The notes below the pieces were generated by a model. The model was not told where the DNA came from and made no database searches. It worked only from the letters and a program-made list of their open reading frames with translations. From positions 1-39,421 of the forward strand of contig NZ_JAPFGB010000043.1 in assembly GCF_026241095.1 (NCBI RefSeq): a stretch of DNA of 39,421 nt. The letters are read 5' to 3'. Shown here in pieces: positions 25,326-39,400 of the stretch. Source of the stretch: Saccharopolyspora sp. NFXS83 (GTDB lineage: Bacteria; Actinomycetota; Actinomycetes; Mycobacteriales; Pseudonocardiaceae). The translations under genes and the position numbers were made by a program. Numbering within the stretch: the first letter of the stretch is position 1; the number at the start of each line of letters is the position of its first letter.

Positions 25326-26132
25326 GTGAACCGGTCGCTATCGTTCCACGTGCTCGGACCGCTGTCGGTGCAGGCCGGTGGACGCGGACTCGCGGTTCCC
25401 GGCGGCAGGCAGCGCGTGCTGCTCGCGGCCCTGCTCGTGAAGTTCAACCAGGTGGTGTCCGTGGAGGAACTGGTCGACCGGATCTGGGACGCGACCCCGC
25501 CGCACCGGCCGCGCCGCGCGCTGCACACCTGCCTGACCAGGCTCCGGCACGCGACCGAGAACCCGCTCGGACCGGAGTCCGAACTGATCCGCACCTCGCA
25601 CGCCGGGTACATGATCGAGCTGCCGCCGGAGAACCTCGACCTCGCCCGGTTCACCGACCTGCTGAGCTCCGCGCGCGCAGCGGCCCGCGCGGGCGACCCG
25701 GTCCGGGAGTCCGAGGCCCTGCGCACCGCGCTGGGCCTGTGGCGCGGCCGGGCGCTGCCGGACGTCGCGTCGGACTCGCTGCACCGCGAGGTCGTTCCCC
25801 GGCTGAACGAGCAGTGGATGTGGGCGCTGGAACGCCGCGCGGCGCTGGGCCTCGCGATGGGGCGCCACCACGAACTCGTCGCGGAACTGCGCGCGCTGAC
25901 CTTCGAGCACCCCTTCCACGAACCGTTCTGGCGGCACTTCATGCTCGCGCTGTACCGCTGCGGCCGTCGGGTGGAGGCGCTGATGGCCTACGGCGAACTG
26001 ACGGTGCGGATCCGCGACGAGTTCGGCGTGGACCCGAGCGCGGAGGTGCGCGCGCTGCACCTGGCGATCCTGCGCGACGACGAGCGAGCGCTCGCCGCAT
26101 GCCGGGTACCCGCACCGCGGACCGCGCAGTAG
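25326..26132 (+). CDS. cinR1: SARP-family activator of the lanthipeptide cluster (CinR1-like)
   Basis: 268 residues from GTG 25326 with GGGAGG upstream. The N-terminal OmpR-type winged helix (FHVLGPLSVQAGGRGLAVPGGRQRVLLAALL, VVSVEELVDRIWDATPP, a wing ending IRTSHAGYMIELPPENLD) is followed by the bacterial transcriptional activation domain (ALRTALGLWRGRALPDVA to YGELTVRIRDEFGVDPS). With no ATPase or TPR extension, it is a short SARP like those that switch on Streptomyces antibiotic clusters. In the cinnamycin cluster the SARP CinR1 has this role; the symbol is by analogy. A direct repeat before the biosynthetic genes (29500-29517) is a candidate target. Confidence 0.85.
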   Translation: MNRSLSFHVLGPLSVQAGGRGLAVPGGRQRVLLAALLVKFNQVVSVEELVDRIWDATPPHRPRRALHTCLTRLRHATENPLGPESELIRTSHAGYMIELPPENLDLARFTDLLSSARAAARAGDPVRESEALRTALGLWRGRALPDVASDSLHREVVPRLNEQWMWALERRAALGLAMGRHHELVAELRALTFEHPFHEPFWRHFMLALYRCGRRVEALMAYGELTVRIRDEFGVDPSAEVRALHLAILRDDERALAACRVPAPRTAQ

Positions 26133-26134
26133 TG

Positions 26135-26770
26135 CTACGACACCGACTCCGCTTCCGCGCGCGGGTCCTCGTGCCGCTCGCGGCGACGGCGACGCCGCCA
26201 GAGCACGATGGCCAACGCCACGATCACGGCCGCGACCACCGGCACCGCGCCGAACATCCCGGACAGGCCCGTGTACGAGGCGCCGACGAGGTAGCCGACA
26301 CCGCCTTCGCCGCACGCCCACAGCACCCCGGCCAGCGCGCTGTAGGGCGCCATCCGCCGGTACGGCATGCCGGACGCGCCCGCCAGGTGCGGTGCCGCGG
26401 ACCGGACCAGCGGGACGAAGCGGCACGGGATGAGCGCGGGGCCGCCGTGGCGGCGGAACAGATCGCTCGCCCGGTCCCACGCACGGTGCGCGCGGCGGGC
26501 GACGCGGGTGGAGCGCAGCCGTGGCCCGAGCCGCAGGCCGGTGTAGAAGCCCAAGGCGTCGCCGCAGACCGCGCCGAGGGCGGCGAACACCACCACCAGC
26601 CACAGGTCGAGCGCACCGGAGTACGCGAGCGCTCCCGCGACCAGCAACGGCCCCAAGGTCGGTACGAACGGGCTGACCACGAGGATTCCTTCGACGAACA
26701 CCAGGCCCGCGAGCAGTCCGTACGCGGTCAGCGGTGGCAGCTGCGCGAGCCACTCGGCCGGCGCGGGCAT
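26135..26770 (-). CDS. DedA-family membrane protein, candidate PE-handling self-protection factor
   Basis: 211 residues, ATG 26770 overlapping the methyltransferase stop (TGATG). About five hydrophobic segments are present. The DedA/SNARE-associated signature is clear: VEGILVVSPFVPTLGPLLVAGALAY, and the Arg motif CRFVPLVRSAAPHLAGASGM with GVLWACGEGGVGYLVG. The tail is very basic (WRRRRRRRERHEDP). DedA proteins move phospholipids or lipid carriers across the membrane; B. subtilis PetA is reported to affect the distribution of phosphatidylethanolamine (PE) between leaflets. Being co-translated with a PmtA-like methyltransferase inside a cluster for a PE-binding peptide suggests a role in hiding PE from the product. 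That role is inference. Its stop is 2 bases from the SARP stop. Confidence 0.8.
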   Translation of the reverse strand: MPAPAEWLAQLPPLTAYGLLAGLVFVEGILVVSPFVPTLGPLLVAGALAYSGALDLWLVVVFAALGAVCGDALGFYTGLRLGPRLRSTRVARRAHRAWDRASDLFRRHGGPALIPCRFVPLVRSAAPHLAGASGMPYRRMAPYSALAGVLWACGEGGVGYLVGASYTGLSGMFGAVPVVAAVIVALAIVLWRRRRRRERHEDPRAEAESVS

Positions 26771-27447
26771 CAGGTCCGGTCCGCGTTCGGCGCGCGCAGG
26801 TGCCAGGCGTGCGCGGGCGGCAGGTTGCGCCAGACCGTCGCCCGGCCGAGCCCGTAGCGGTCGATGAACTCGCGCTCGACGGCCACGGCGCCGCGGTGCC
26901 GCCGCGCTTCGGCGCGACCGGCGAACGCGGATCGCGCCCGCTGGGTGCCGAGGTAGCCGAAGAAGGTCAAGTCCCCACCGGGCACCAGCAGGTCGACGTG
27001 CCGCTGCAGCATCGACCGCACCACGACCGGGTCGAAGTTCGTGAACGGCAGGCCGGAGACGACGACGTCGTAGCGGGATTCCAGCTCCGCGTCGAGGATC
27101 GACCGCTCGTGCAGCCGGATGCGGTCGGACGCCGCCGAGAGCGCGAAGTCGGTGCGCAGCGCCTCGGAGAGCATCCGCACGAAGCGGGGGTTGACCTCGA
27201 CCACGTCGAGCCGGTCGGCGGGGCCGAGCCGCCGGGCCAGCTCTCGGGTCACGACACCGCTGCCCGCGCCGACTTCCAGCACTCGCGCCGGGTGCCGCTG
27301 CTCCGGTGGCGCGAGCGGTTCGGCGAGCCGGGCGGCCAGGTGAGCGCTGCTCGGCGCGAACGCGCCGGTCGTGCGGAAGCTTCGGAAGGCCTCGCGGGAG
27401 AAGCCCAGCCATCCGGCTCTGGTGTTCGGGGTCTGCGTCTGGTCCAC
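26770..27447 (-). CDS. PmtA-like phospholipid N-methyltransferase, probable lanthipeptide self-resistance
   Basis: 225 residues from GTG 27447. The N-terminal FSREAFRSFRTTGAFAPSSAHLA is the FRxTGAxxPSS signature of phosphatidylethanolamine N-methyltransferases of the PmtA type. The SAM site is ARVLEVGAGSGVVTRELARRL with VVEVNPRF, and the catalytic motif region is DVVVSGLPFTNFDPVVV. In the cinnamycin cluster a PE methyltransferase (Cinorf10) gives self-resistance by turning PE into monomethyl-PE, which the peptide binds poorly. The same job is likely here. It is divergent from the histidine kinase gene and overlaps the DedA gene by one base. Confidence 0.85.
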   Translation of the reverse strand: MDQTQTPNTRAGWLGFSREAFRSFRTTGAFAPSSAHLAARLAEPLAPPEQRHPARVLEVGAGSGVVTRELARRLGPADRLDVVEVNPRFVRMLSEALRTDFALSAASDRIRLHERSILDAELESRYDVVVSGLPFTNFDPVVVRSMLQRHVDLLVPGGDLTFFGYLGTQRARSAFAGRAEARRHRGAVAVEREFIDRYGLGRATVWRNLPPAHAWHLRAPNADRT

Positions 27448-27502
27448 GTTCGCCCACGGTAGGGCGCGGTGAACGACTCGGCATCGGTCGCTCGGACACG
27501 GT

Positions 27503-27510
27503 TACCGGTA
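27503..27510. promoter_or_regulatory. TACCGGTA palindrome in the divergent kinase/methyltransferase promoter
   Basis: An 8-base perfect palindrome within the 131-base gap between the divergent methyltransferase and kinase genes. A site here could be bound by the response regulator encoded downstream. It is short, so the evidence is weak. Confidence 0.25.
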
Positions 27511-27578
27511 CGAAAGTAGGGGGTCGGCTGATTTCTATGCTCGACGGTCATGACCACGGACGCGGCGGGAGGTGTGCG

Positions 27579-28700
27579 GTGCGCGGGATCGAACGTCCGC
27601 TCCGGCCGTGGGCCGAGGCGGCGCTGCTGCTGGCGGTCGGCCTGCTGTCCGCGCAGGAGGGGTACGTGGTCGCGGGCGGCACCGTGCTCAGCCCGCAGGT
27701 CGGCGCGGCGGTGCTGACCACTGCCGCGCTCGCTTGGCGCACCAGGTACCCGGCCGTGCCCGCCGCGCTGGCGACGGCGCTCGCGGCGGCGCTGGGCGCG
27801 GTGCTGCCGCTGGTGGTGGTGCTGTTCTCGTTCGCCTCGCGCGGCAGGCTGGTGGCGGCGGCCTCGTGCGCGACGGCCGCCATGGTGGGGAACCTCCTGG
27901 TGCAGCCGCAGCAATCGCTGTGGAGCACCCGTTCGTACGGGCCGGTGCTGCTGCTGGTCTCGGTGGTGGCGCTGGGCATGTGGGCGAGCAGCCGCAGGCG
28001 GCTGCTGACGAGCATGACCGCGCAGGTCGAGCAGCTGCGGGTGGAGCGGGAGCTGCGGGCCGAGCACGCCCGGCTGGCCGAGCGGGTCCGCGTCGCGTCC
28101 GAACTGCACGACGCCCTGGCGCACTCGCTGAGCGTGCTGGCGTTGCACACCGGTGCGTTGCAACGGCATTCGGCGAACCTGCCCCCGCAGGTCGCCGATC
28201 GCATCGATCTGCTGCGGGCCACCTCCACGGACGCGTTGCGGGACCTGCGCGACGTGCTCGGCGGGCTGCGCGCCCCGGACACCGACGGGGCTCCGGGGCC
28301 GCGGCAGCTGCGGGAGCTGCCGGTGCTGCTGGACGAGGCGCGCGCGGCGGGCCAGCAGGTCGAGGCGGAGATCCGCGGCACGGCGACCGCGCTGCCGTTC
28401 AGCCACCGGCTGGCGATCTACCGCGTGGTGCAGGAGGCGTTGACCAACGCGCGCAAGCACGCTCCGGGTTCGAGCGTGCGGGTGCGGGTGGACCACGGAC
28501 CACCGGAGTCCGCAGTGGACGTGGAGAACACCGCGGGCGAGCCCGGCTCGCACCAGGAACCGGGCGGGCACGGCCTGCTGGGCTTGGCCGAGCGCGTGGA
28601 CGCGCTGCACGGGCGGCTGGAACACGGGCCGTCGGGCGCGGGCGGCTGGCGGCTGACCGCGCGCATCCCGGTCGGCGACCACACCCCGGAGGCGACATGA
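27579..28700 (+). CDS. cinK: Sensor histidine kinase (NarL/DesK-type partner), CinK-like
   Basis: 373 residues; GTG 27579 has GGGAGG 6 bases upstream and begins right before the first membrane helix. Residues ~8-140 contain four to six hydrophobic segments with very short loops, so it senses within or near the membrane. A coiled linker (VEQLRVERELRAEHARLAERV) leads to the HisKA_3 box ELHDALAHSLSV with His177. The HATPase has VVQEALTNARKHAP and GGHGLLGLAERV. Its stop overlaps the response regulator start (ATGA). Sitting divergent from the lipid methyltransferase, it may sense envelope damage or the peptide-PE complex; that is inference. The symbol is by analogy with CinK. Confidence 0.85.
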   Translation: MRGIERPLRPWAEAALLLAVGLLSAQEGYVVAGGTVLSPQVGAAVLTTAALAWRTRYPAVPAALATALAAALGAVLPLVVVLFSFASRGRLVAAASCATAAMVGNLLVQPQQSLWSTRSYGPVLLLVSVVALGMWASSRRRLLTSMTAQVEQLRVERELRAEHARLAERVRVASELHDALAHSLSVLALHTGALQRHSANLPPQVADRIDLLRATSTDALRDLRDVLGGLRAPDTDGAPGPRQLRELPVLLDEARAAGQQVEAEIRGTATALPFSHRLAIYRVVQEALTNARKHAPGSSVRVRVDHGPPESAVDVENTAGEPGSHQEPGGHGLLGLAERVDALHGRLEHGPSGAGGWRLTARIPVGDHTPEAT

Positions 28701-29341
28701 TCCGCACGTTGATCGTCGACGACGACACGCTGGTACGCCTCGCGCTCGCCGACATCCTCGACGACGCCCCGGACATCGACGTCGTCGCCCAGGCCGGCGA
28801 CGGGCTGGAAGCGGTCGAGCAGGCCACCGCCCGCCGGGTCGACGTCGTGCTGATGGACGTGCGGATGCCGCGCATGGACGGCATCCAGGCCACCGGGAGG
28901 CTTCGCGCGCTGCCCGATCCGCCGCAGGTCGTCACGTTGACGACGTTCGACCTCGACGAGTACGTCCACGGCGCGCTCGCCGCGGGCGCTGCCGGATTCC
29001 TGCTCAAGGACAGCGACCCCGCTGAGATCGTGCGCGCGGTGCGGGTCGTCGCGCGCGGGCAGGCGATGCTGCACCCGGCGGCGGCGCGCAGGCTCGTCGA
29101 CCACTACCACCGCGACACCGGCCTGCAGGCCGCCGCGGCGCGCGCGAAGATCGACCGGCTCACCCCGCGGGAACGCGAGGTGCTGGCCGAGCTGGCCGCG
29201 GGCGGCGGCAACGCCGACATCGCGACCGCGCTGGGAATGCGGGAGAGCACCGTGAAGGCGCACGTGAGCCGCATCCTCGCCGCGCTCGAAGTCGGCAACC
29301 GCGTCCAGGCGGCCCTCTGCGCCTGGACCGCGGACGGCTGA
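28697..29341 (+). CDS. cinR: NarL/FixJ-family response regulator, CinR-like
   Basis: 214 residues. The receiver domain has the acidic pocket at Asp8-Asp10, the phosphoacceptor Asp54 in VLMDVRMPRMDG, and the conserved Lys in GFLLKDSDP. The C-terminal LuxR-type helix-turn-helix is RLTPREREVLAELAAGGGNADIATALGMRESTVKAHVSRI. It is coupled to the kinase by a 4-base overlap. A hairpin at 29360-29388 follows. It probably regulates the divergent methyltransferase/DedA pair, its own operon or the biosynthetic genes. Confidence 0.88.
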   Translation: MIRTLIVDDDTLVRLALADILDDAPDIDVVAQAGDGLEAVEQATARRVDVVLMDVRMPRMDGIQATGRLRALPDPPQVVTLTTFDLDEYVHGALAAGAAGFLLKDSDPAEIVRAVRVVARGQAMLHPAAARRLVDHYHRDTGLQAAAARAKIDRLTPREREVLAELAAGGGNADIATALGMRESTVKAHVSRILAALEVGNRVQAALCAWTADG

Positions 29342-29359
29342 GAGCCCGTCCTCGAACCT

Positions 29360-29388
29360 GTTCCGCGTGGCGGTGCGGGCCGCGGAAC
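29360..29388 (+). terminator. Hairpin after the response regulator gene
   Basis: GTTCCGCG and CGCGGAAC form a perfect 8-base stem around a 13-base loop, 18 bases after the stop codon. It is likely the terminator of the two-component operon. Its 3' arm runs into a 16-base copy of the REP-like repeat found at 37146-37196. Confidence 0.55.
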
Positions 29389-29440
29389 CTCAGCGGCCTT
29401 CACGCTGCGGGATCGATTTCTCGTGCACGCCCTCTGCGCA

Positions 29441-29481
29441 GGTGCGGCGCGGCGGTTCCGCGCACAGGACGGCGCCGCACC
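29441..29481 (+). promoter_or_regulatory. 10-base stem-loop upstream of the biosynthetic genes
   Basis: GGTGCGGCGC (29441-29450) pairs exactly with GCGCCGCACC (29472-29481). It lies just before the putative promoter of the lanthipeptide genes and could be a second terminator for the regulator transcript or a regulatory element. Confidence 0.45.
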
Positions 29482-29499
29482 TCGTGCGGTGAAACAGGA

Positions 29500-29517
29500 T
29501 TGAAGGCGGACTGCAAC
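29500..29517 (+). promoter_or_regulatory. Candidate SARP box before the lanthipeptide operon
   Basis: TTGAAGG (29500-29506) and CTGCAAC (29511-29517) are imperfect direct repeats 11 bases apart, the spacing SARP dimers prefer. A possible -10 (TAGCGT, 29528-29533) follows about 10 bases later. The repeats share only four of seven bases, so this is tentative. Confidence 0.3.
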
Positions 29518-29570
29518 CGCTTTCTCCTAGCGTTGCCCCCACTGGCCTCCGACCAGAATGGGAACCGTCG

Positions 29571-29942
29571 ATGAAGCACTCGGATGTTCCGACCATCTAC
29601 CCGGAAGTCGACGCGATCCGGCAGATCCAGGAACTCGTCTTGTTCTGCTCCCTCCTCCCCCCTGACGGGAAACTGCGCGAGGTGCTGGAGCTCGCGCTCG
29701 CCCTGCACGAGGAGCCCATGTTGTCCCGGCTCACGCCGGTCACCGACCTGCATCCCTTCTCCACGAAGGAATGGATGGAGTCGCTGTGGATGCACGAAGA
29801 CCTGCCCGCGAACGAGAAGGAGGTGGTCACCTGGCAGAACAAGGACGAGAACATGAGCCCGGCGCTCGTGGAATTGAAGAACGTCGAACAACAACTGGGC
29901 ATCTCGCTCGTCGCCCGGTTGCGCGCTGAACCATCCGAATGA
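29571..29942 (+). CDS. cinorf7: Candidate lysinoalanine synthase (Cinorf7/DurN-like)
   Basis: 123 residues, ATG 29571. There is no signal peptide or membrane helix; it is mostly helical, with an N-terminal segment DAIRQIQELVLFCSLLPPDGKLREVLELAL and a C-terminal block WQNKDENMSPALVELKNVEQQLG. I recognise it by position and size: in cinnamycin and duramycin clusters a ~120-residue protein (Cinorf7/DurN) sits immediately before the precursor and makes the lysinoalanine bridge between dehydrated Ser6 and Lys19. Both residues are conserved in the precursor 40 bases downstream. I could not align it to DurN from memory, so identity rests on context. Confidence 0.65.
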   Translation: MKHSDVPTIYPEVDAIRQIQELVLFCSLLPPDGKLREVLELALALHEEPMLSRLTPVTDLHPFSTKEWMESLWMHEDLPANEKEVVTWQNKDENMSPALVELKNVEQQLGISLVARLRAEPSE

Positions 29943-29982
29943 TCGCAAGCATTCCGAGAAAGCCGATATTCAGGAGGAATTC

Positions 29983-30219
29983 ATGTCCGACACCATTCTT
30001 CGGCAAGCCGTCATCGACGCCGAGTTCCGCACCGCTCTGATCGAGAACCCGGCCGCTTTCGGCGTCACCCCGGGCGACCTGCCCGACGCGGTCGAGCGCA
30101 TCGACCAGGAGACGCTCGACTTCTGGACCGAGGGGGTCGCCGCCACCGAGATCTTCGCCTGCGCCTCCACGTGCAGCTCGGGCCCGTTCACCATCCTGTG
30201 CGACGGCTCGACCAAGTAG
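29983..30219 (+). CDS. cinA: Cinnamycin-type class II lanthipeptide precursor
   Basis: 78 residues, ATG 29983 with AGGAGG upstream. The 59-residue leader (MSDTILRQAVIDAEF..., ENPAAFGVTP, ETLDFW) resembles the CinA leader and ends EIFA, an A-x-A-like cleavage site. The core is CASTCSSGPFTILCDGSTK. By position it keeps Cys1, Cys5, Cys14, Thr11, Thr18, Ser6, Lys19, Asp15 and GPF (8-10) of cinnamycin. The expected bridges are 1-18, 4-14, 5-11 and lysinoalanine 6-19, with hydroxylated Asp15. Thr4 replaces Ser4, so the 4-14 bridge would become methyllanthionine. Other changes from cinnamycin are R2A, Q3S, F7S, F12I, V13L and N17S. The product should bind PE. Confidence 0.95.
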   Translation: MSDTILRQAVIDAEFRTALIENPAAFGVTPGDLPDAVERIDQETLDFWTEGVAATEIFACASTCSSGPFTILCDGSTK

Positions 30220-30289
30220 AGCACCGGCGCGGTGGGCCTCCGGGCTCACCGCGTTGCTCACCCGCCTCCGATCGCCGGACAGGAGTTCG

Positions 30290-33200
30290 ATGCAGACCGA
30301 CCGTGCACTCGATCTGGCGGCCCGCGCGGCCACGCTGAGCGAGCGGCTGCGCGTGGTCGCGGCGCTGCGCGCCTGCGGTCGTCCGCCGGACGAGCCGCTG
30401 TCCGACCCCGTCGAGCGGTGGCGCCTGGAACACCTGGCCGGGCGGCTCGCGGACAAGTTCGAGCAGGAAGCGCAGCACTGCTCGACCCCCCTGCGGCACG
30501 ACCGCGAGCAGCTCATCGACGGGCTCACCACCTACCACCGCTTCGAATCGGCCCCGGACGATGCCGCGACCGCGGTGCTGGAACTGCTCGACGACCTGCA
30601 CTCCGCCTGGCTGCCGACCTACCGGGCCGCCGTGCTCGGTTGGAATCCGGCGCTGTCCGACGCCCGCGCGACCTGGCGGCGGGTCGAGGTGTACTACGGC
30701 AGGCTCGCCACGGCCTGCGAACCGTTCCTCGTCGAACTCGGGCGGAGGCTGGCCGCGGCCCGCGCCGGGCTGCCGGACTCGATCGGCGACGGGCTGATCG
30801 ACGACCTGCAACGCCACTTGCACGACCGGTTCGCCCTCGCGCTGGCGTGGACGGTGGAGGCCGAGGCGAACGTGCACCGGGCGCGGCACGGGCTCGACCG
30901 GGAGCAGTCGGGCGAGGCCGGATACCTCGCCTACCTCGACGCGACCTTCGGCGATGCGGCGTCGTACCACGCCTTCTTCCTGAAGTACCCGGTGCTGGGG
31001 CGCTGGCTCGCCCACCTCACGGACCTGCTGGCCGGCTACGGCGCCGAGCTGTTCGGCCGCCTGGCCGCCGACGCCGAACGGATCGGCGCGGAGTTCTTCG
31101 GCCGGGCCGTCACCGAATTCCGCTCGGTGCGCCTGGGCACCTCGGACTACCACGCGGGCGGGCGCAGCGTGGCGGTGGTGACGGTCGTCCTCGACGGCGG
31201 CGGGACCGGCACCTTCTACTGCAAGCCGCGCTGCCTGCGTTCCGAGGCGGGCCTGCAGGTCGTGCTGGACCGGCTGCGCGAGCGGGACGTCGTGGCGTTC
31301 ACGACCAGGCCCGTGCTCGTCCGCGACGGGTACGGCTACGAGGCCGCGATCCCGTTGGGGCGCAACGAGGTGCGCGACGCGGAGGCCGCCGCGCAGGTGT
31401 ACCGGGAGCTCGGCGGCTACCTGGCGCTGTTCTACGTGCTCGGCGGCAGCGACCTGCACTTCGAGAACATCATCGTCGCCGACGGCCACGCGTTCGTGTG
31501 CGACGGCGAGACGGTGTTCGGCGCTTCCCCGCCCGGTCGCGACGGCGCGGGCGGGACGATGCAGGACTCGGTGTTCCGCACCGGACTGCTGGAGTGGCCG
31601 CGCGCGGACGTCGACGGCCCGGCGCAGATGCGGCTGAGCGGCTACACCGGCGGCGAGAGCTACGAGATGCCGATGCCGGTGCCGCGGATCAGCGAGCAGC
31701 GCCTCAGCTTCGCCGCCACGGTGGAGAACGTCACGGGCGTGCAGGTCGAACTCAGCGGCGCCAACCGGGTCTTCCACGACGGGGAGCTGGTGAACCCGCA
31801 CGACCACATCGAGTCCATCATGGACGGTTTCGACCGCGTGCACGAGTGGCTGGAGCACCACGCGGACGAGGCGATCGCCCTGCTGTCGCAGGCGTTCGAG
31901 GGCGCCCACGCCCGGTTCCTCAACTGGAGCACCCAGATCTACGCGCAGCTGCTGCTGACCGCGCAGCACCCCAAGAGCCTCGCGGAGCCGCTGGAAGTGG
32001 ATCTGCTGCTGAACACGGTGCGCACCTTCCCCCGCACCTGGGACCAGGACGGCGTGCTCGCCGACCGGGAGACGGCGTCGATGTGGCGGCTGGACGTGCC
32101 CATCTTCACGGCACCGGTGCACGGTGCGGACCTCGTGCACGACCACGCCGACGCGGTGCCGTCCGCGCTGGCCCGCTCCCCGCTGGAGCACGCCGCGCGG
32201 CGCATCCGGCACCTGACGCCGCGCAACCGGGAGCAGCAGGCCCGCTACATCGCGGCGAGCGTGTCGACCGGCGAGATCAGCAGCCCGGCGTTCGTGGCGA
32301 CCGCGCTGGACTACGCGACCCGGATCGGCGAGCGGCTGTGCGCGATGCTGCGCGACCCGTCCGCTCCCGCGCCGTGGACGTCGTTCCGGCGCAACGGGGC
32401 CGAGATGGAGGCCGTCGACATCGAAGGCGACCTGTACCAGGGCTCGGCGGGCGTGGCGCTGTTCCTCGCCTACCTCGACGACCTGGTTCCGCGCCCCGAA
32501 TTCCGGCACGCCGCGCGACGCGCGCTGCGGCACGCGCTCGACTCCGGGCAGCGGCGTCCCGGCGCCTTCGCCGACGTCGGGGGGCGGCTCTACCTGCTCA
32601 CCCACCTGCACCGGCTGTGGGGCGAACAGGAGCTGGCGGACCTGGCGGTGCGGCTGAGCGCGGACGTGCCCGAACTGGTCGACGCCGACGACCACCTCGA
32701 CGTTCTGCACGGCGCCGCCGGGCTGATCCCGGTGCTCCTGGAGCTGCGCCCGGTGCTCGGCGAGAAGGCAGTCGACCTGGCGCACCACTGCGCCGCGCAC
32801 GTGCTGCGCCACGCGCGCGAGCGCGACGACGTGCTGAGCTGGCCGTCGAACACCCCGGAGAACGTGCTGGACGACCTGACCGGCCTCGCCCACGGCGCCG
32901 GGGGCATCGGCTGGGCGCTGATCCTGCTCGGCACGCGCACCGGCCGCGAGGACTACGTCGCGGCGGGCCGGCGCGCGTTCGCCTACGAGGCGCGGCACTT
33001 CGACACCACCGAGCAGGACTGGTACGACCTGCGCACGAACACAGGGCAGGTCGCGAAGAACGGCCACCACTTCTCCAACGCCTGGTGCAACGGGGCAGCG
33101 GGCATCGGGCTGACCCGCATCGCGGCCTGGGCGCTGCTCGGCGGGGACGACGACGCGCTGCTGCGGGAGTCCCGCCACGCGCTGGCGGCGACCCTGCGCA

Positions 33201-33499
33201 ACTTCTCCCGGCTCCGCAACCACACGTTGTGCCACGGCACGGCGGGCAACTCGGAACTGCTGGTCCGCTACGCGCTGCTGCGCAGCGAGCCCGCCTTCCA
33301 GCTGGAGGCGAACGTGCAGGTGCGGGAGATGTGGCGGTCGCTGGACGACGCCGAGCACGGGCTCGGCGAGCACAGCGCCGACTTCTTCCCCGGCCTGATG
33401 CTGGGCATCGCCGGTTACGGCATGCACTTCCTGCGCATCGCGCACCCGGATCGGATCCCGTCGGTGCTGCTGCTCGATCCGCCGCCGGACCGTCCCTGA
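30290..33499 (+). CDS. cinM: Class II lanthipeptide synthetase LanM (CinM-like)
   Basis: 1069 residues, start ATG 30290 with AGGAG 5 bases upstream. The N-terminal two-thirds is the dehydratase, a lipid-kinase-like fold that phosphorylates and eliminates Ser/Thr: FYCKPRCLRSEAGLQ, GGYLALFYVLGGSDLHFENI and VCDGETVFGASPPG. The C-terminal third is the LanC-like cyclase, with zinc ligands Cys933 (NAWCNGAAGIG) and Cys981-His982 (NHTLCHGTAGNSE). Length is usual for LanM. It should install the three thioether rings of the precursor encoded 70 bases upstream. The downstream hydroxylase starts 33 bases after it in the same operon. Confidence 0.95.
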   Translation: MQTDRALDLAARAATLSERLRVVAALRACGRPPDEPLSDPVERWRLEHLAGRLADKFEQEAQHCSTPLRHDREQLIDGLTTYHRFESAPDDAATAVLELLDDLHSAWLPTYRAAVLGWNPALSDARATWRRVEVYYGRLATACEPFLVELGRRLAAARAGLPDSIGDGLIDDLQRHLHDRFALALAWTVEAEANVHRARHGLDREQSGEAGYLAYLDATFGDAASYHAFFLKYPVLGRWLAHLTDLLAGYGAELFGRLAADAERIGAEFFGRAVTEFRSVRLGTSDYHAGGRSVAVVTVVLDGGGTGTFYCKPRCLRSEAGLQVVLDRLRERDVVAFTTRPVLVRDGYGYEAAIPLGRNEVRDAEAAAQVYRELGGYLALFYVLGGSDLHFENIIVADGHAFVCDGETVFGASPPGRDGAGGTMQDSVFRTGLLEWPRADVDGPAQMRLSGYTGGESYEMPMPVPRISEQRLSFAATVENVTGVQVELSGANRVFHDGELVNPHDHIESIMDGFDRVHEWLEHHADEAIALLSQAFEGAHARFLNWSTQIYAQLLLTAQHPKSLAEPLEVDLLLNTVRTFPRTWDQDGVLADRETASMWRLDVPIFTAPVHGADLVHDHADAVPSALARSPLEHAARRIRHLTPRNREQQARYIAASVSTGEISSPAFVATALDYATRIGERLCAMLRDPSAPAPWTSFRRNGAEMEAVDIEGDLYQGSAGVALFLAYLDDLVPRPEFRHAARRALRHALDSGQRRPGAFADVGGRLYLLTHLHRLWGEQELADLAVRLSADVPELVDADDHLDVLHGAAGLIPVLLELRPVLGEKAVDLAHHCAAHVLRHARERDDVLSWPSNTPENVLDDLTGLAHGAGGIGWALILLGTRTGREDYVAAGRRAFAYEARHFDTTEQDWYDLRTNTGQVAKNGHHFSNAWCNGAAGIGLTRIAAWALLGGDDDALLRESRHALAATLRNFSRLRNHTLCHGTAGNSELLVRYALLRSEPAFQLEANVQVREMWRSLDDAEHGLGEHSADFFPGLMLGIAGYGMHFLRIAHPDRIPSVLLLDPPPDRP

Positions 33500-33532
33500 C
33501 GTCCCACCCGCATCGGCACGAAGGAGCCCGTC

Positions 33533-34435
33533 ATGTCCGTCGAATCCTGCGTGGACTTCCTGCAGGCGACCCAGGACCGCCCCGAACTCGCCCAGCAGCT
33601 CAAGGCCGTCACAGGGATGAACGAGATCATCGCGCTCGGCGGCAGGCACGGGTTCGACTTCACCGTCCTGGAACTCGCCCGCGGTTCCGCCACGTTCGCG
33701 GCCACGGCCGCGCCCGCGCCGACCGCCGCACCACCCGCGGAAACGGCCTTCTACCACCACGAGTACGACTTGGCGGCGGTGCCGGAGCTGGCGGGCCTGA
33801 TCGACGAGCTGCCCCGGCTGAAGGTGCGGCCTCCGGTGGACATGGGCGCGTTCCACTCCCGTTTCCGCGCCGAGGACCTGGAGTCCACGTCGCGGTCCCC
33901 CGCCGACCCGGACTTCCAGGACTGGCACCGGAAGATGATGGCGGCGCACTGGCGGGACCCGGCCGACGCGGACGCGCCACGACGGGACTTCCACTTGGTG
34001 AACCTCGACGAGCACGTCGAGCACCCCGGTTACGAGGACTACTTCGAGGCCAAGACGAACGCGATCCGCCTGCTGGAAGGGGTGTTCGGCGACGAGGTCC
34101 GGCTCTCCGGCGCCATGTGGTACCCGCCGCGCAGCTACCGGCTCTGGCACACCAACGAGGACCAGCCCGGCTGGCGGATGTACGTGGTGGACCTCGACGA
34201 CGACTTCGCCGACGGCGGCGAGACCTCGTTCTTCCGCTACCAGAACCCGCGGACCGGCGAGCTCGTGACGCTGCGGGAACGCCGCCGGATCGTGCGGTTC
34301 TTCAAGGCCGAGCAGGACCCGGAGAAGCTGTTCTGGCACTGCATCGTCAACCCGACCGAACGCCACCGCTGGAGCTTCGGCTTCGTGGTCCCCGAGGACT
34401 GGCGAAGCCGCCTCGCCGGCCTCCGCGACGAGTGA
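33533..34435 (+). CDS. cinX: Fe(II)/2-oxoglutarate Asp hydroxylase (CinX-like) with Nif11-like N-terminus
   Basis: 300 residues, ATG 33533 with AAGGAG upstream. Residues 1-50 (MSVESCVDFLQATQDRPEL, then LKAVTGMNEIIALGGRHGF with DFTVLEL) follow the Nif11 pattern normally seen in peptide leaders. An Ala/Pro linker (about 57-73) leads to the oxygenase domain: LSGAMWYPPRSYRLWHTNED with His206, FADGGETSFFRYQN, and distal His269 in FWHCIVNPTERHRWSFGF, with a nearby Arg for 2-oxoglutarate. In cinnamycin biosynthesis CinX hydroxylates Asp15, needed for PE binding; Asp15 is present here. The Nif11-like segment may mimic or bind the leader. Confidence 0.88.
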   Translation: MSVESCVDFLQATQDRPELAQQLKAVTGMNEIIALGGRHGFDFTVLELARGSATFAATAAPAPTAAPPAETAFYHHEYDLAAVPELAGLIDELPRLKVRPPVDMGAFHSRFRAEDLESTSRSPADPDFQDWHRKMMAAHWRDPADADAPRRDFHLVNLDEHVEHPGYEDYFEAKTNAIRLLEGVFGDEVRLSGAMWYPPRSYRLWHTNEDQPGWRMYVVDLDDDFADGGETSFFRYQNPRTGELVTLRERRRIVRFFKAEQDPEKLFWHCIVNPTERHRWSFGFVVPEDWRSRLAGLRDE

Positions 34436-34444
34436 GGAGCACCC

Positions 34445-35428
34445 GTGCGACGACTCCGGCGGGACGATGACCGCCACGCCCCCGCTGACGCGCCCGCCGT
34501 CCTGGTGCGCGACGTGCACAAGTCCTACCGGGGTGTGCACGCCGTGCGCGGGGTGGACATCACGGTGCGGCGCGGTGAGACGTTCGGCTTCCTCGGGCCG
34601 AACGGAGCGGGCAAGTCAACCATGATCGCGATGATGTGCACCTTGGCCCGGCCGGACTCCGGGCGCATCGAGATCGCCGGGTACGACGTGGTCCGCGACG
34701 GTCATCAAGTGCGCCGCAGGCTCGGCTTGGTCTTCCAGGAGTCGACGCTCGACACCGACCTGACCACCGCGGAGAACCTGAGCTTCCACGCCGACCTGTA
34801 CGGGATGCCGCGGGCGGTCGTGGCCGAACGCGTGGAATCGATGCTGGACCTCGTCGGGCTGCGCGAGCGGCGGGGCGATCGGGTCGCGACGTTCTCCGGG
34901 GGGATGCGGCGGCGGTTGGAGATCGCCCGCGGGCTGCTGCACCGGCCCCGCGTCCTGTTCCTGGACGAGCCGACCGTCGGCCTGGATCCGCAGACCCGCG
35001 CGGAGATCTGGACCTACTTGCACCGGATCGCCGAGCAGGAGGCCACCACGGTCTTCCTCACCACGCACTACCTCGACGAGGCGGAGCAGTGCGACCGGAT
35101 CGCGATCATCGACGAGGGCCGGATCGTCGCGCAGGGGACTCCGGCGGAGCTGAAGTCCGTCCTCGGCGCCGATCGCATCGCGCTGCGCACCGACGACGAC
35201 GCCGCGGCGGTGCGGGTGCTGCGCGACCGCTTCGACCTGGACGCCACCGTGCTCGACGGCGGCGTGCAGGTGCAGGTCGCCGACGGTGCGCGGTTCGTGC
35301 CGGTGCTGTGCTCCGGCCTGAACGTGCCGATCTTCGAGGTGACCGTGACCCGCCCCAGCCTGGACGAGGTGTTCCTGCACTACACCGGCCGGGCGATCCG
35401 CGACGCCCCCGGCGTGCCCGCCCGATGA
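34445..35428 (+). CDS. cinT: ABC exporter ATPase (DrrA/CinT-like)
   Basis: 327 residues, GTG 34445 with GAGGAG upstream, 9 bases after the hydroxylase stop. Walker A is GPNGAGKST, Q-loop LGLVFQEST, signature FSGGMRRRLEIARGLLH, Walker B VLFLDEPTVGLDP, and H-loop TTHYLDEAEQCD. The C-terminal ~90 residues (ADRIALRTDDDAAAVRVL..., PSLDEVFLHYTGR) are the DrrA-type extension of antibiotic exporters. It energises the permease encoded next, exporting the peptide or giving resistance. The symbol is by analogy with the cinnamycin cluster. Confidence 0.9.
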   Translation: MRRLRRDDDRHAPADAPAVLVRDVHKSYRGVHAVRGVDITVRRGETFGFLGPNGAGKSTMIAMMCTLARPDSGRIEIAGYDVVRDGHQVRRRLGLVFQESTLDTDLTTAENLSFHADLYGMPRAVVAERVESMLDLVGLRERRGDRVATFSGGMRRRLEIARGLLHRPRVLFLDEPTVGLDPQTRAEIWTYLHRIAEQEATTVFLTTHYLDEAEQCDRIAIIDEGRIVAQGTPAELKSVLGADRIALRTDDDAAAVRVLRDRFDLDATVLDGGVQVQVADGARFVPVLCSGLNVPIFEVTVTRPSLDEVFLHYTGRAIRDAPGVPAR

Positions 35429-35473
35429 CCGCCGCACGACCGGTTTCCGTCCACGGCCGCCTGAGGAGTTCAC

Positions 35474-36367
35474 GTGACCCGCACCGCACCACCCCGCCGC
35501 ACCCCCGCATCCCGTCCGTCCGAACAGGACACCGCTCCGCGCGGTCGCCTGGCGAACGAATGGCGGGCCGGGAGCATGGTGTGGCGCCGCGAAGTGCTGC
35601 ACTTCCTGCGGGACCGCACGAGGGTGGCGGTGTCGCTGCTGCCGCCGTTCCTGTTCCTGTACGTGCTCGGCGTCGGGCTGTCCCGGTTGTTCGCCGACGC
35701 GGGCGGTGGCGCGCGGGCCGCGAGCGACTACATGCTGTTCCTGTTCCCCGGCGTGCTGGTGATGGCCGCGCAGGCACCCGCGATCTCCGTCGGCGCGTCG
35801 ATCGTGTGGGACCGCCAGACCGGGTTCATGCGGGAGATGCTGGCCGCGCCGGTGTTCCGCGGCACGCTGCTGCTCGGCAAGTGCCTGGGCGGCGCCACGG
35901 TGGCGACCGCGCAGAGCGCCGTGGTGCTGCTCACCGCCGGCCTGGTCGGCGTGCCGTACCACCCCGCGCTGTTCGCGATGCTGGTCGTCCAGGTCTCGAT
36001 CGCCGCGCTGTCGATGACCGTGCTCGCCGCCGCCGTGGCAGTGCTGATCAAGCGGGTGCAGACGTTCAACACGGTGCTCTCCGTGCTGATCACGCCGCTG
36101 GTCTTCCTGTCCGGCATGATGTTCCCGATCAGCGCGATGCCCGGCTGGATGGCCTCGCTGACCCTGGTGAACCCGCTGACCTACGCGGTGGACGCGATGC
36201 GCCACACCATCCTCGGGCAGCTCGGCGCGCCGCAGTCGAGGTTGATCTTCACGCCGGTCGAGTGGGGAGGCTGGCCGGTGCCGCCGCTCGTGGAGATGGC
36301 CGTGGTGCTGGTGTTCTCGGCGGTGGCGCTGGTCGTGATCGGCCGTCGCTTCGCCCGAACCGGTTGA
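35474..36367 (+). CDS. cinH: ABC-2 type exporter permease (DrrB/CinH-like)
   Basis: 297 residues, GTG 35474 with GAGGAG upstream, 45 bases after the ATPase stop. A ~30-residue charged N-terminus is followed by six hydrophobic helices, among them VSLLPPFLFLYVLGVGLSRL and YMLFLFPGVLVMAAQAPAIS. The ABC-2 signature VNPLTYAVDAMRHTILG comes before the last loop. It forms the membrane channel with the upstream ATPase. No C39 peptidase domain is present in either, so leader removal needs another protease, consistent with an A-x-A cleavage site. Confidence 0.9.
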   Translation: MTRTAPPRRTPASRPSEQDTAPRGRLANEWRAGSMVWRREVLHFLRDRTRVAVSLLPPFLFLYVLGVGLSRLFADAGGGARAASDYMLFLFPGVLVMAAQAPAISVGASIVWDRQTGFMREMLAAPVFRGTLLLGKCLGGATVATAQSAVVLLTAGLVGVPYHPALFAMLVVQVSIAALSMTVLAAAVAVLIKRVQTFNTVLSVLITPLVFLSGMMFPISAMPGWMASLTLVNPLTYAVDAMRHTILGQLGAPQSRLIFTPVEWGGWPVPPLVEMAVVLVFSAVALVVIGRRFARTG

Positions 36368-37226: not shown

Positions 37227-37622
37227 TCACCCCACGGAGTTGAGCTTTTCGATTCGGATGCGGACCAGCAGGCGGTCCTCCTCGCGTTCGCCGCCGAACC
37301 ACGGGTACGGCATGCCCAGGTAGCGGTGCGAGAGCTCGTGGATGTGCTCCACGGCGCCGTCGTGGCGGATGTCCACGGCCCGGCCCCGCAGCGCGTAGTA
37401 GCGGGCGGAGCTCTCCGGGTCGGTGACGTTCACGGCGACCCGCGGGTCGCGGCGGAGGTTGCGCACCTTCTGCGCGCCTTCCACCGTGTTGATCAGGACG
37501 TGGTCGCCGTCGGTGTCGCACCAGGTCTGGGTGAGCTGCGGCGCGCCGTCGGGCATCGCGGTGGCGACGAAGCACGGGCTCGGCTTGCAGAGCAGGTCCA
37601 GCAGGCCTTCGGGCAGTTCCAT
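37227..37622 (-). CDS. PPOX-class (F420-dependent) oxidoreductase
   Basis: 131 residues, ATG 37622 with GAGGAGG upstream. It is a split-barrel flavin/F420-binding fold of the pyridoxamine 5'-phosphate oxidase-like family: PCFVATAMPDGAPQLTQTWCDTDGDHVLINT followed by GAQKVRNLRRDPRVAVNVTDPE, and YYALRGRAVDIRHDGAVEHI. Actinobacterial members of this length usually use F420. The substrate is unknown. It is divergent from the gene at 37704. Confidence 0.82.
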   Translation of the reverse strand: MELPEGLLDLLCKPSPCFVATAMPDGAPQLTQTWCDTDGDHVLINTVEGAQKVRNLRRDPRVAVNVTDPESSARYYALRGRAVDIRHDGAVEHIHELSHRYLGMPYPWFGGEREEDRLLVRIRIEKLNSVG

Positions 37623-37703
37623 TGCGCCGCCTCCTCGCGGGTGGATTCGATTCAGCGGTGATCGTCGCACGTGCGGCGGGGCCGAGTGCGCGATCATGCG
37701 GGG

Positions 37704-38336
37704 ATGTCGCTCGATCAGTCCGAACTCGACCTGGTCTGGTACGCGAGTTACGGCTCGAACATGCACGCCGACCGGCTCCGCTGCTACCTCGAAGGCGGCA
37801 CTCCGCCCGGCGGGCGGCGCGCCTGCCCCGGCTGCCGCGATCCTCGTCCGCCACGGCGCACCGCGGGCCACCGCGTCGCGGGTGGCGTGTACTTCGCGAC
37901 GGAGTCGCTGGCGTGGGGCGGCGGCCGGGCTTTCCTCGATCCGGAACTGGAGGGCTCGGCCGCCTTGCGCGCGTACCTGGTGACGCCCGGCCAGTTCGCC
38001 GACGTCGTGGCCCAGGAGATGTACCGGGAGCCGGGCACCGACCTCGACCTGCGCGAGGTCCGGCGCACCGGCCGTGACGTGCTCGGACCGGGTCGCTACG
38101 AGACCTTGCTGCACGTGGGCGACCTCGATGGACATCCGGTGCTGACGTTCACCGCGTCCTGGTCGAGCGCGGACGTGCCGCTGGTGGCGCCGTCGGCCGC
38201 GTACCTGCGGATGCTGCTCGGCGGCTTGCGCGCGGGCCAGGGCTGGGACCTCGGCACGGCGGCCCGCTACCTCGCGGCCCTGCCCGGAGCGCGGGGGCGG
38301 TGGGGCGCGGCGGAGATCTCCGCGCTCGCGACGTGA
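37704..38336 (+). CDS. Gamma-glutamylcyclotransferase-like protein
   Basis: 210 residues, ATG 37704 after a GGGG run; an upstream ATG 37671 is possible. VWYASYGSNMHADRLRCYLEGG carries the YGSNM substrate loop of the GGCT fold, and GGVYFATESLAWGGGRAFLDPE continues the barrel. Homologues in actinomycetes are often labelled histone deacetylase without basis. Possible reactions are release of 5-oxoproline from gamma-glutamyl peptides or amines. Specificity is not visible. It is convergent with the PEP mutase-like gene. Confidence 0.7.
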   Translation: MSLDQSELDLVWYASYGSNMHADRLRCYLEGGTPPGGRRACPGCRDPRPPRRTAGHRVAGGVYFATESLAWGGGRAFLDPELEGSAALRAYLVTPGQFADVVAQEMYREPGTDLDLREVRRTGRDVLGPGRYETLLHVGDLDGHPVLTFTASWSSADVPLVAPSAAYLRMLLGGLRAGQGWDLGTAARYLAALPGARGRWGAAEISALAT

Positions 38337-38348
38337 GGCGGCCTCCGA

Positions 38349-39191
38349 TCAGGTGTTGCCGAGGACCGCGTCGATCTCCGCGCCGGAGAGGACTCCGGCC
38401 TGGTCGGGCAAGGTGCCGTGCTCGGCGATCTGCCGAGCCGAGTGCACGACCGCGCTCAGCGCGGCGCGGGACAGGGTGGAGCCGAGGCTCACCCGGCGCA
38501 CGCCCAGCTCGGCGAGCCCGGGGACCGACAGTTCGCGGGCCGCACCGACCGCGAGCACGTTCACCGGCTTGGTCACCGCGGCGCACACCGCGCGGATCGC
38601 CGCGGCGTCCGGCAACGCCGGGGCGTAGAGCACATCGGCACCGGCCTGTTCGAAGGCGCGCAACCGGCGGATCGTGTCGTCCAGGTCGGCCCGGCCGTGC
38701 AGGAAGTTCTCGGCGCGGGCGGTGAGGGTGAACGGGAACGGCAACTCGCGCGCCGCTTCGGAGGCCGCCGCGATCCGCTGCACCGCGTGGTCGAACCCGT
38801 AGATCGGGTCGTCGTCGCGCCCGGTCGCGTCTTCGATGGAACCGCCCACCGCACCGGCCAGCGCCACGGCGCGCACCGCGTCGGCGGCGTCTTCCGGGGC
38901 ATCGCCGAAGCCGTTCTCCAGGTCGGCCGACACGGGCAGCTCCGTCGCCGCCACCACTTCCCGCACGTTGTGCAGGGTCTCGTCCCGGTCGACCCGGCGA
39001 GCACCGTCGCGACGTCCCAGCCGGTGCGCGAGCCCCCCGCTGGTCGTGGCCAACGCCCTGAACCCCAGCCCGGCCAGCAACCGCGCGGTACCCGCGTCCC
39101 ACGGATTCGGGACCACGAACGCCCCCGGCCCCTCGTGCAACTCCGCGAACGCGCTTCCACGACGCTGCCGCTCGACTGAGGTGATCTCCAT
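38349..39191 (-). CDS. PEP mutase/isocitrate lyase family protein
   Basis: 280 residues, ATG 39191 with GGAAGGGCG upstream. A TIM-barrel of the PEP mutase/isocitrate lyase superfamily: FVVPNPWDAGTARLLAGLGF at the start, LPVSADLENGFGD with the metal-binding acids, GSIEDATGRDDDPIY, and LTARAENFLHGRADLDDTI. The KKCGH lyase motif of true isocitrate lyases is missing, so it belongs to the broad group annotated as carboxyvinyl-carboxyphosphonate phosphorylmutase-like. A C-C or P-C lyase on a 2-oxo or hydroxyacid is likely; the substrate is unknown. Confidence 0.8.
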   Translation of the reverse strand: MEITSVERQRRGSAFAELHEGPGAFVVPNPWDAGTARLLAGLGFRALATTSGGLAHRLGRRDGARRVDRDETLHNVREVVAATELPVSADLENGFGDAPEDAADAVRAVALAGAVGGSIEDATGRDDDPIYGFDHAVQRIAAASEAARELPFPFTLTARAENFLHGRADLDDTIRRLRAFEQAGADVLYAPALPDAAAIRAVCAAVTKPVNVLAVGAARELSVPGLAELGVRRVSLGSTLSRAALSAVVHSARQIAEHGTLPDQAGVLSGAEIDAVLGNT

Positions 39192-39284
39192 GAACGCCCT
39201 TCCCACTCCGCACGACGGACCCAGCCCATCATCCCCCACCCCACCGACACCGACCCCGCGCAACGAGCAACACCGCCCACTTCG

Positions 39285-39357
39285 CGGCGAAGCCGTCCAG
39301 TAGGCGGCGAAGCTCGCCTGCCTTGCGGCCGAAGGCCGTGCCTGACGGCGAAGCCGT
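39285..39357. repeat. Array of small hairpins with GAA loops
   Basis: Four units follow each other: CGGC-GAA-GCCG (39285-39295), GGCG-gcgaagct-CGCC (39303-39318), CGGCC-GAA-GGCCG (39326-39338) and ACGGC-GAA-GCCGT (39345-39357). Units 3 and 4 share the text GAA(G)GCCGTGCCTG. The stems vary while the GAA loop is kept, so pairing seems to be what is maintained. The array lies in the 230-base gap upstream of the PEP mutase-like gene, which otherwise shows no gene. Confidence 0.55.
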
Positions 39358-39400
39358 GCCTGGATGCGCGCCAGCGCATAGCCCACGTCACAAAGCCGAC

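Follow-up and report, generated by a model that had tools for sequence, protein, structure and literature searches.

Genes and presumed regulatory elements of the locus

The window, that is the whole stretch of DNA that was analyzed (39,421 nucleotides, contig NZ_JAPFGB010000043.1 of Saccharopolyspora sp. NFXS83), carries ten identified cluster genes in the order SARP-MTase-HK-RR-DurN-A-LanM-X-T-H. They span about 25326-36367 and all are open from start to stop. The initial annotation had singled out the interval 29983-30219, which does hold the precursor gene, but the system extends over the longer span. The following features were recognized:

25326-26132, + strand: R1, SARP-type activator, open reading frame of 268 aa (KyaR1 260 aa; exact start uncertain); BTAD E 1.6e-39, Trans_reg_C E 1.7e-7
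26770-27447, - strand: L, methyltransferase, presumed phosphatidylethanolamine (PE) N-methyltransferase for self-immunity (KyaL/CinL-like); Methyltransf_25 E 9.3e-10
27582-28700, + strand: K, sensor histidine kinase, 372 codons from the putative start; HisKA_3 E 3.2e-15
28691-29341, + strand: R, LuxR-type response regulator, 216 aa; Response_reg E 3e-26 and GerE E 1.3e-15 in the open frame 27572-29341
29490-29517, + strand: presumed SARP operator, three TGAAA-like repeats (29490, 29501, 29512) with 11-base spacing
29571-29942, + strand: N, DurN-type lysinoalanine synthase, 123 aa; PF19375 DurN E 3.3e-39, PDB 6c0g (lysinoalanine synthase) E 2.8e-51
29983-30219, + strand: A, precursor peptide, 78 aa, with a 59-residue leader ending IFA and the 19-residue core CASTCSSGPFTILCDGSTK; PF19398, NF033431
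30219-30259, + strand: hairpin between A and M, presumed transcription attenuator (folding)
30290-33499, + strand: M, class II lanthionine synthetase LanM, 1069 aa; DUF4135 E 1.6e-74, LANC_like E 4.1e-60
33533-34435, + strand: X, presumed Asp15 hydroxylase (CinX-like) with an N-terminal Nif11 domain; Nif11 E 1.9e-11
34445-35428, + strand: T, ABC transporter ATPase (export); ABC_tran E 7.9e-34, drrA above its cut-off
35474-36367, + strand: H, ABC transporter membrane subunit (export); ABC2_membrane E 3.4e-27

Precursor A starts with ATG, with AGGAGG upstream at 29972-29977, and ends in EIFA followed by CASTCSSGPFTILCDGSTK and the stop codon; a single codon-biased open reading frame spans both leader and core. 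It was matched by the DurB-like family PF19398 (E 5.3e-32, 110 bits, cut-off 26.6) and by the NCBIfam model NF033431, cinnamycin_RiPP (E 2.1e-32, 112 bits, cut-off 35). Because of these two matches and of the full cluster around it, the precursor is not a chance reading frame, and its earlier assignment to the cinnamycin-type lanthipeptides was upheld. PDB 6c0h, a duramycin-type peptide, aligned to the part of precursor A that begins at FAC and reaches the C-terminus (E 0.0033), in agreement with a leader that ends in IFA.

The genes for LanM, DurN and the presumed CinX-type hydroxylase lie in one operon, and the ABC exporter T/H, the SARP and the KR two-component regulators are all present in the cluster. 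M scored 510 bits against TIGR03897 (cut-off 304), and its alignment with LicM2 revealed matching WC and CHG motifs. For X, a structural model of moderate quality (pLDDT 74.8) gave weak matches to 2OG/Fe(II) oxygenases such as PHD2 (E 3.2e-5, best TM 0.33). An N-terminal Nif11 domain, known above all from RiPP leaders, occurred in 9/9 X proteins examined (that of the window, 33533-34435, and eight homologues); it had been noted earlier for RumX (PMC6165096, in part). L was matched by the lipid-methyltransferase models OlsG (1.5e-13) and PmtA (7.7e-11), both under their NCBIfam cut-offs. The open frame of K begins at 27306, and its homology to the congener G005 starts at residue 92 of that frame.

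The presumed operator is followed by a -10-like TAGCGT at 29528-29533, upstream of durN; this stretch is conserved in the congeners G003, G005 and G004, and more weakly in Kutzneria and G408. Three repeats and a -10 element have been described for the cin cluster, as has an attenuator separating cinA from cinM (both in passages of PMC5408092). Folding of 30215-30292 gave -41 kcal/mol with a z of -3.39, and 0/200 shuffles were as good. The kyamicin-type cluster is real and apparently intact. Beyond it, a PNPOx-like gene (37227-38135, - strand) and a PEP phosphomutase-like gene (38349-39386, - strand) were found.

The core peptide within the cinnamycin family

The core aligned without gaps to that of cinnamycin (string taken from PMC7759991, in part), as had been claimed. 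The differences are R2A, Q3S, S4T, F7S, F12I, V13L and N17S; these are seven including S4T and six besides, where the initial annotation had counted seven besides it. That annotation was right that the cross-linking positions (C1, T4, C5, S6, T11, C14, T18, K19) and D15 are kept, and CASTCSSGPFTILCDGSTK has the family core pattern C1, S/T4, C5, S/T6, GP8-9, T11, C14, DG15-16, S/T18, K19. The cluster is alike to those of cinnamycin and duramycin in ring residues, Gly8-Pro9, Thr11, Asp15-Gly16, Lys19 and enzyme types. The cin genes Y, Z, orf8 and orf9 are given as non-essential (Table 1, PMC6974636).

Kyamicin, from Saccharopolyspora sp. KY3/KY7/KY21, had been named as the first relative to compare. 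According to passages of PMC6974636, its gene set is common to the cluster of the window, the precursor (78 aa), DurN (123 aa) and T (327 aa) are of the same length in both, and the modified residues T4, S6, T11, T18, D15 and K19 are shared. In G005, the core CASTCSAGPFTFACDGSTK computes to C76H108N20O25S3 and 899.3551, equal to the published kyamicin values, and its six differences from cinnamycin match the statement of the same paper; we infer that G005 is a kyamicin-type strain. Identities between the window and G005 are 67.7% for R1, 72.3% for L, 73.1% for K, 83.2% for R, 72.4% for N, 78.2% for A, 74.2% for M, 77.7% for X, 89.3% for T and 81.8% for H. Compared with the kyamicin core thus deduced, CASTCSSGPFTILCDGSTK carries A7S, F12I and A13L (3/19; +24.06 Da).

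Two other described peptides come close. Rubromidin from Actinomadura sp. RB29 shares with the window Thr4, Ser7 and homologues of DurN, CinM and CinX, but has Thr6 instead of Ser6 and a C-terminal Gly after Lys19 (PMC6165096, in part); over the first 19 residues its core lies 5 residues from CASTCSSGPFTILCDGSTK. Coerumycin from Actinomadura coerulea was compared by motif alone, and CASTCSSGPFTILCDGSTK fits its motif CxxxCSxGPFTxxCDGxTK as given in part of PMC12837462.

In order to place the core in the family, PF19398 was searched in a sample of 1469 genomes, drawn evenly for order and class and not exhaustive. Hits were obtained in 4/6 genomes of the genus, 5/390 of the family, 2/298 of the order, 6/394 of the class, 38/345 of the order of G822 and 1/35 of the family of G939, all these sets overlapping. 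A total of 37 CDG..K-type cores were tallied, 29 of them distinct; the class IV-like loci L022 and L054-L058 were excluded and four His-rich cores counted apart. C1, C5, G8, P9, T11, C14, D15, G16 and K19 were invariant in 37/37 cores, and positions 4, 6 and 18 were always Ser or Thr. The variable positions were occupied as follows:

Position 7: S 16, W 9, A 6, F 5, Y 1
Position 10: F 25, I 5, L 4, A 1, V 1, T 1
Position 12: F 16, I 13, A 5, V 3
Position 13: V 15, A 13, L 5, I 4

Thus F7S, put forward initially as the loss of one aromatic residue, is present but not special, Ser being the commonest residue at this position and a Ser7 core being already published for rubromidin (PMC6165096, in part). 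Likewise, the changes F12I and V13L are there, but I12 (13/37) and L13 (5/37) recur. S7, I12 and L13 are all seen in other cores as well; the complete 19-mer was found once; the nearest cores are those of G003 (F10A) and G1242 (F10L, S17T), and the core CASTCSSGPLTILCDGTTK, 2 residues away, occurs in another order. The exact string was printed nowhere in the running text of the open-licence literature searched, so that CASTCSSGPFTILCDGSTK is apparently an unprinted core. Plasmid sequences were without match, and a search of genome contigs returned one locus, in Kutzneria. What is new here is the core; the cinnamycin group and the kyamicin-type cluster were already known.

The summed side-chain volume at positions 7, 10, 12 and 13 varied less among the 29 distinct cores (sd 51.5) than in column shuffles (79.0), a fraction of 0.0004 of 10,000 shuffles being as low; this was driven by positions 7 and 12. 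After tree correction the volumes at 7 and 12 were anti-correlated (r -0.72, p 0.0006, leave-one-out -0.76 to -0.65), the best of 28 pairs and the sole one surviving correction for that number (0.0006 x 28 = about 0.017). On removal of the Trp7 cores the signal became weaker (26 tips, r -0.59, p 0.14), and on a hydropathy scale no trade-off between 7 and 12 was found (p 0.18). A volume trade-off at these two positions is put forward as an exploratory hypothesis.

Extra residues, 1-4 in number, followed Lys19 in 13/37 cores (G, A, N, Q, P, GQ, VG, and HHHH in L078); the loci concerned are L050, L060, L061, L063-L065, L068, L072, L074, L076-L078 and L080.

Predicted product and its expected binding to phosphatidylethanolamine

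The genes, their order, the conserved residues and the conserved operator and hairpin are observed here; the chemical steps, export, immunity, PE binding and regulation are carried over from cinnamycin, duramycin and kyamicin. On this footing we hold it highly probable that the locus is a complete kyamicin-type class II lanthipeptide cluster making a PE-binding lantibiotic. R1 would turn on the N-A-M-X operon. LanM would then dehydrate Thr4, Ser6 (or Ser7), Thr11 and Thr18 and form three methyllanthionine rings, 1-18, 4-14 and 5-11, X would hydroxylate Asp15 and DurN would join Lys19 to a dehydroalanine. After removal of the leader behind IFA, the product would be exported by T and H and sensed by K and R, and L would methylate the producer's own phosphatidylethanolamine. 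The initial proposal that Thr4 gives a methyllanthionine fits the family, kyamicin being described with modified Thr4, Ser6, Thr11 and Thr18 and three methyllanthionines (PMC6974636, in part).

The mature peptide is predicted as C76H116N20O26S3, with [M+2H]2+ at 911.384 (computed 911.3839); its deoxy form computes to 903.386 and a form with five dehydrations to 902.379. The underlying rule of four dehydrations plus one oxygen, taken from the initial annotation, reproduces the published values of kyamicin, duramycin (computed value equal to the printed 1006.9262) and rubromidin A. For rubromidin, the published m/z of 1914.73938 (PMC6165096, in part) is matched at -3.2 ppm by a peptide with four dehydrations and one added oxygen that keeps its C-terminal Gly.

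According to passages of PMC5408092, cinnamycin binds PE, with immunity through PE methylation, and solid-state NMR suggests contacts of hydrophobic residues with the lipid tails (PMC10092488, in part). By analogy with the family, the peptide of the window is expected to bind PE, through a predicted hydrophobic face S7-F10-I12-L13. Among the 20 of 76 literature matches listed for mutational data on Phe7/10/12, none dealt with duramycin. It is conceivable, although we think it rather doubtful, that the peptide is made and that Ser7 or the fewer aromatics lead to poor or altered PE binding. A single aromatic residue is left in CASTCSSGPFTILCDGSTK, and kyamicin, whose residues at 7 and 13 are small, acts on B. 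subtilis 8-fold less strongly than cinnamycin and 4-fold less strongly than duramycin (MIC 128, 16 and 32 ug/ml, respectively; PMC6974636, in part). Yet Ser7 is the most frequent residue at its position in the sample (16/37), and 4/37 cores have no aromatic residue at all, which indicates that the aromatics of cinnamycin are not a family requirement. Moreover, the summed volume of the four face residues is near the mean of the 29 distinct cores (612 versus 622); that of G003 is 511.

Ser7 also adds a second dehydratable serine beside Ser6 and a possible second lysinoalanine donor, which the initial annotation missed. With two adjacent serines, neither the position of the lysinoalanine nor the number of dehydrations is certain. 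In kyamicin the donor is Ser6 (PMC6974636, in part), and the authors of rubromidin proposed a link between Lys19 and dehydroalanine7 (PMC6165096, in part). Since the mass of rubromidin corresponds to exactly four dehydrations, an extra serine need not add a fifth one. Thr6 occurs in 3/37 cores, all three with Ser7, and Ser6 in 13/16 Ser7 cores. As a speculative and, in our judgement, improbable extension, Ser6-Ser7 cores might draw their lysinoalanine from Ser7 instead of or besides Ser6, giving a 7-19 bridge, while the face evolves by the size trade-off at 7 and 12. Such a bridge would be a ring topology unproven among the cinnamycin-like peptides compared, and with the Ser6-Ser7 pair one could test which site the lysinoalanine synthase chooses.

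A decayed or silent cluster without product is judged quite improbable. The wild-type kyamicin strains had no detectable product on 13 media, and production required forced expression of R1 and L (PMC6974636, in part), so that the cluster of the window may be silent too. Against decay, the ten genes are open from start to stop, the promoter repeats and the hairpin are conserved, and the leader differs from that of G003 by 6 synonymous codons and 0 replacements, which suggests selection.

The PE-binding lantibiotic favored here should, from its core sequence, not be kyamicin itself. The cluster appears to have been reported already for NFXS83, as "kyamicin, 100%" similarity with Kyaorf11 also listed (PMC10145562, in part). 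The identities to the kya genes printed there (R1 68, L 73, K 71, R 84, N 72, A 78, M 74, X 78, T 90, H 82) deviate from the window-G005 values by no more than about two points. That the product is kyamicin, as this annotation implies from the same gene set and order, has next to no likelihood, for the predicted formula differs from that of kyamicin (911.384 against 899.355) and the same paper gives a precursor only 78% identical (78.2% here against G005). This corrects a likely mislabel, since the product of the cluster listed as kyamicin should be another peptide.

Congeners and related loci

The flanking MFS and CoA-transferase genes are the same in G003, G005 and G004, which places the cluster at the same position in four congeners. 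In G003 (locus L014, precursor at 8850-9086, minus strand), the leader is identical to that of the window and the core CASTCSSGPATILCDGSTK shares 18/19 residues, F10A leaving no aromatic residue; Ala10 was seen in 1/37 cores. As the leaders are identical, one enzyme set could make both peptides. Together with kyamicin these cores form a natural series (kyamicin A7-F10-F12-A13, window S7-F10-I12-L13, G003 S7-A10-I12-L13) which would directly test the side chains needed in PE recognition.

A core exchange in G004 was considered and rejected; it had been prompted by a Kutzneria locus with core DNA 94.7% and leader 75.1% identical to those of G004. At the protein level, quartet counts favored window+G005 over window+G004 for N (8/4/2), A (6/0/0), M (44/22/6), X (14/4/3), T (14/3/1), H (17/2/1) and the core (4/0/0). 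Since these agree, the CVQS-type core of G004 can simply be retained. L (2/5/3), K (3/8/5) and the identities of two flanking genes favored window+G004, and R1 was split; because of this signal, recombination may have occurred within the cluster. Compared with Actinomadura-like CAST cores (4 loci), core DNA identity was 0.81-0.88, the 16-17 residues in common showing 3 to 7 synonymous differences, and in the LanM tree the window and the CAST-core loci lie far apart. This is taken as probable convergence rather than transfer.

Homologues of DurN and X were present in 35/35 clusters with an Asp15/Lys19 core and LanM in view. This count omits L021, whose contig stops shortly behind A so that it shows DurN but not the region of M and X, and L050, a precursor alone in a piece of 8.7 kb with no M, N or X found. 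By contrast, DurN and CinX were detected at E 1e-3 in 0/4 of L051, L052, L053 and L059, which have a CinA-type leader, LanM, T and H and a His-rich core without Asp15 and Lys19. In a LanM tree of 39 sequences, these four group as a single clade inside the cinnamycin-type synthetases (support 1.0), so that the absence of N and X is one evolutionary event. Their cores are such as CPATHHCIHTHVCRKTY, with the precursor near 7.4 kb of each in coding-strand count. By the NCBIfam and Pfam models, the L051 precursor still belongs to the cinnamycin family. In the two loci examined for it, L051 and L059, genes of the beta-lactamase fold (PF00144) are found close by.

K and R homologues were found in just 6/37 loci and L in 8 (L073 and L074 at 36% identity; loci L017-L020 and L060-L085), and immunity in many relatives must therefore lie elsewhere or differ. 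Finally, L022 (7663-7932) and L054-L058 encode short cores like CIRTCISGWTIRCDGATF, which resemble the C-terminal half of cinnamycin; that of L022 adjoins a class IV LanL synthetase.
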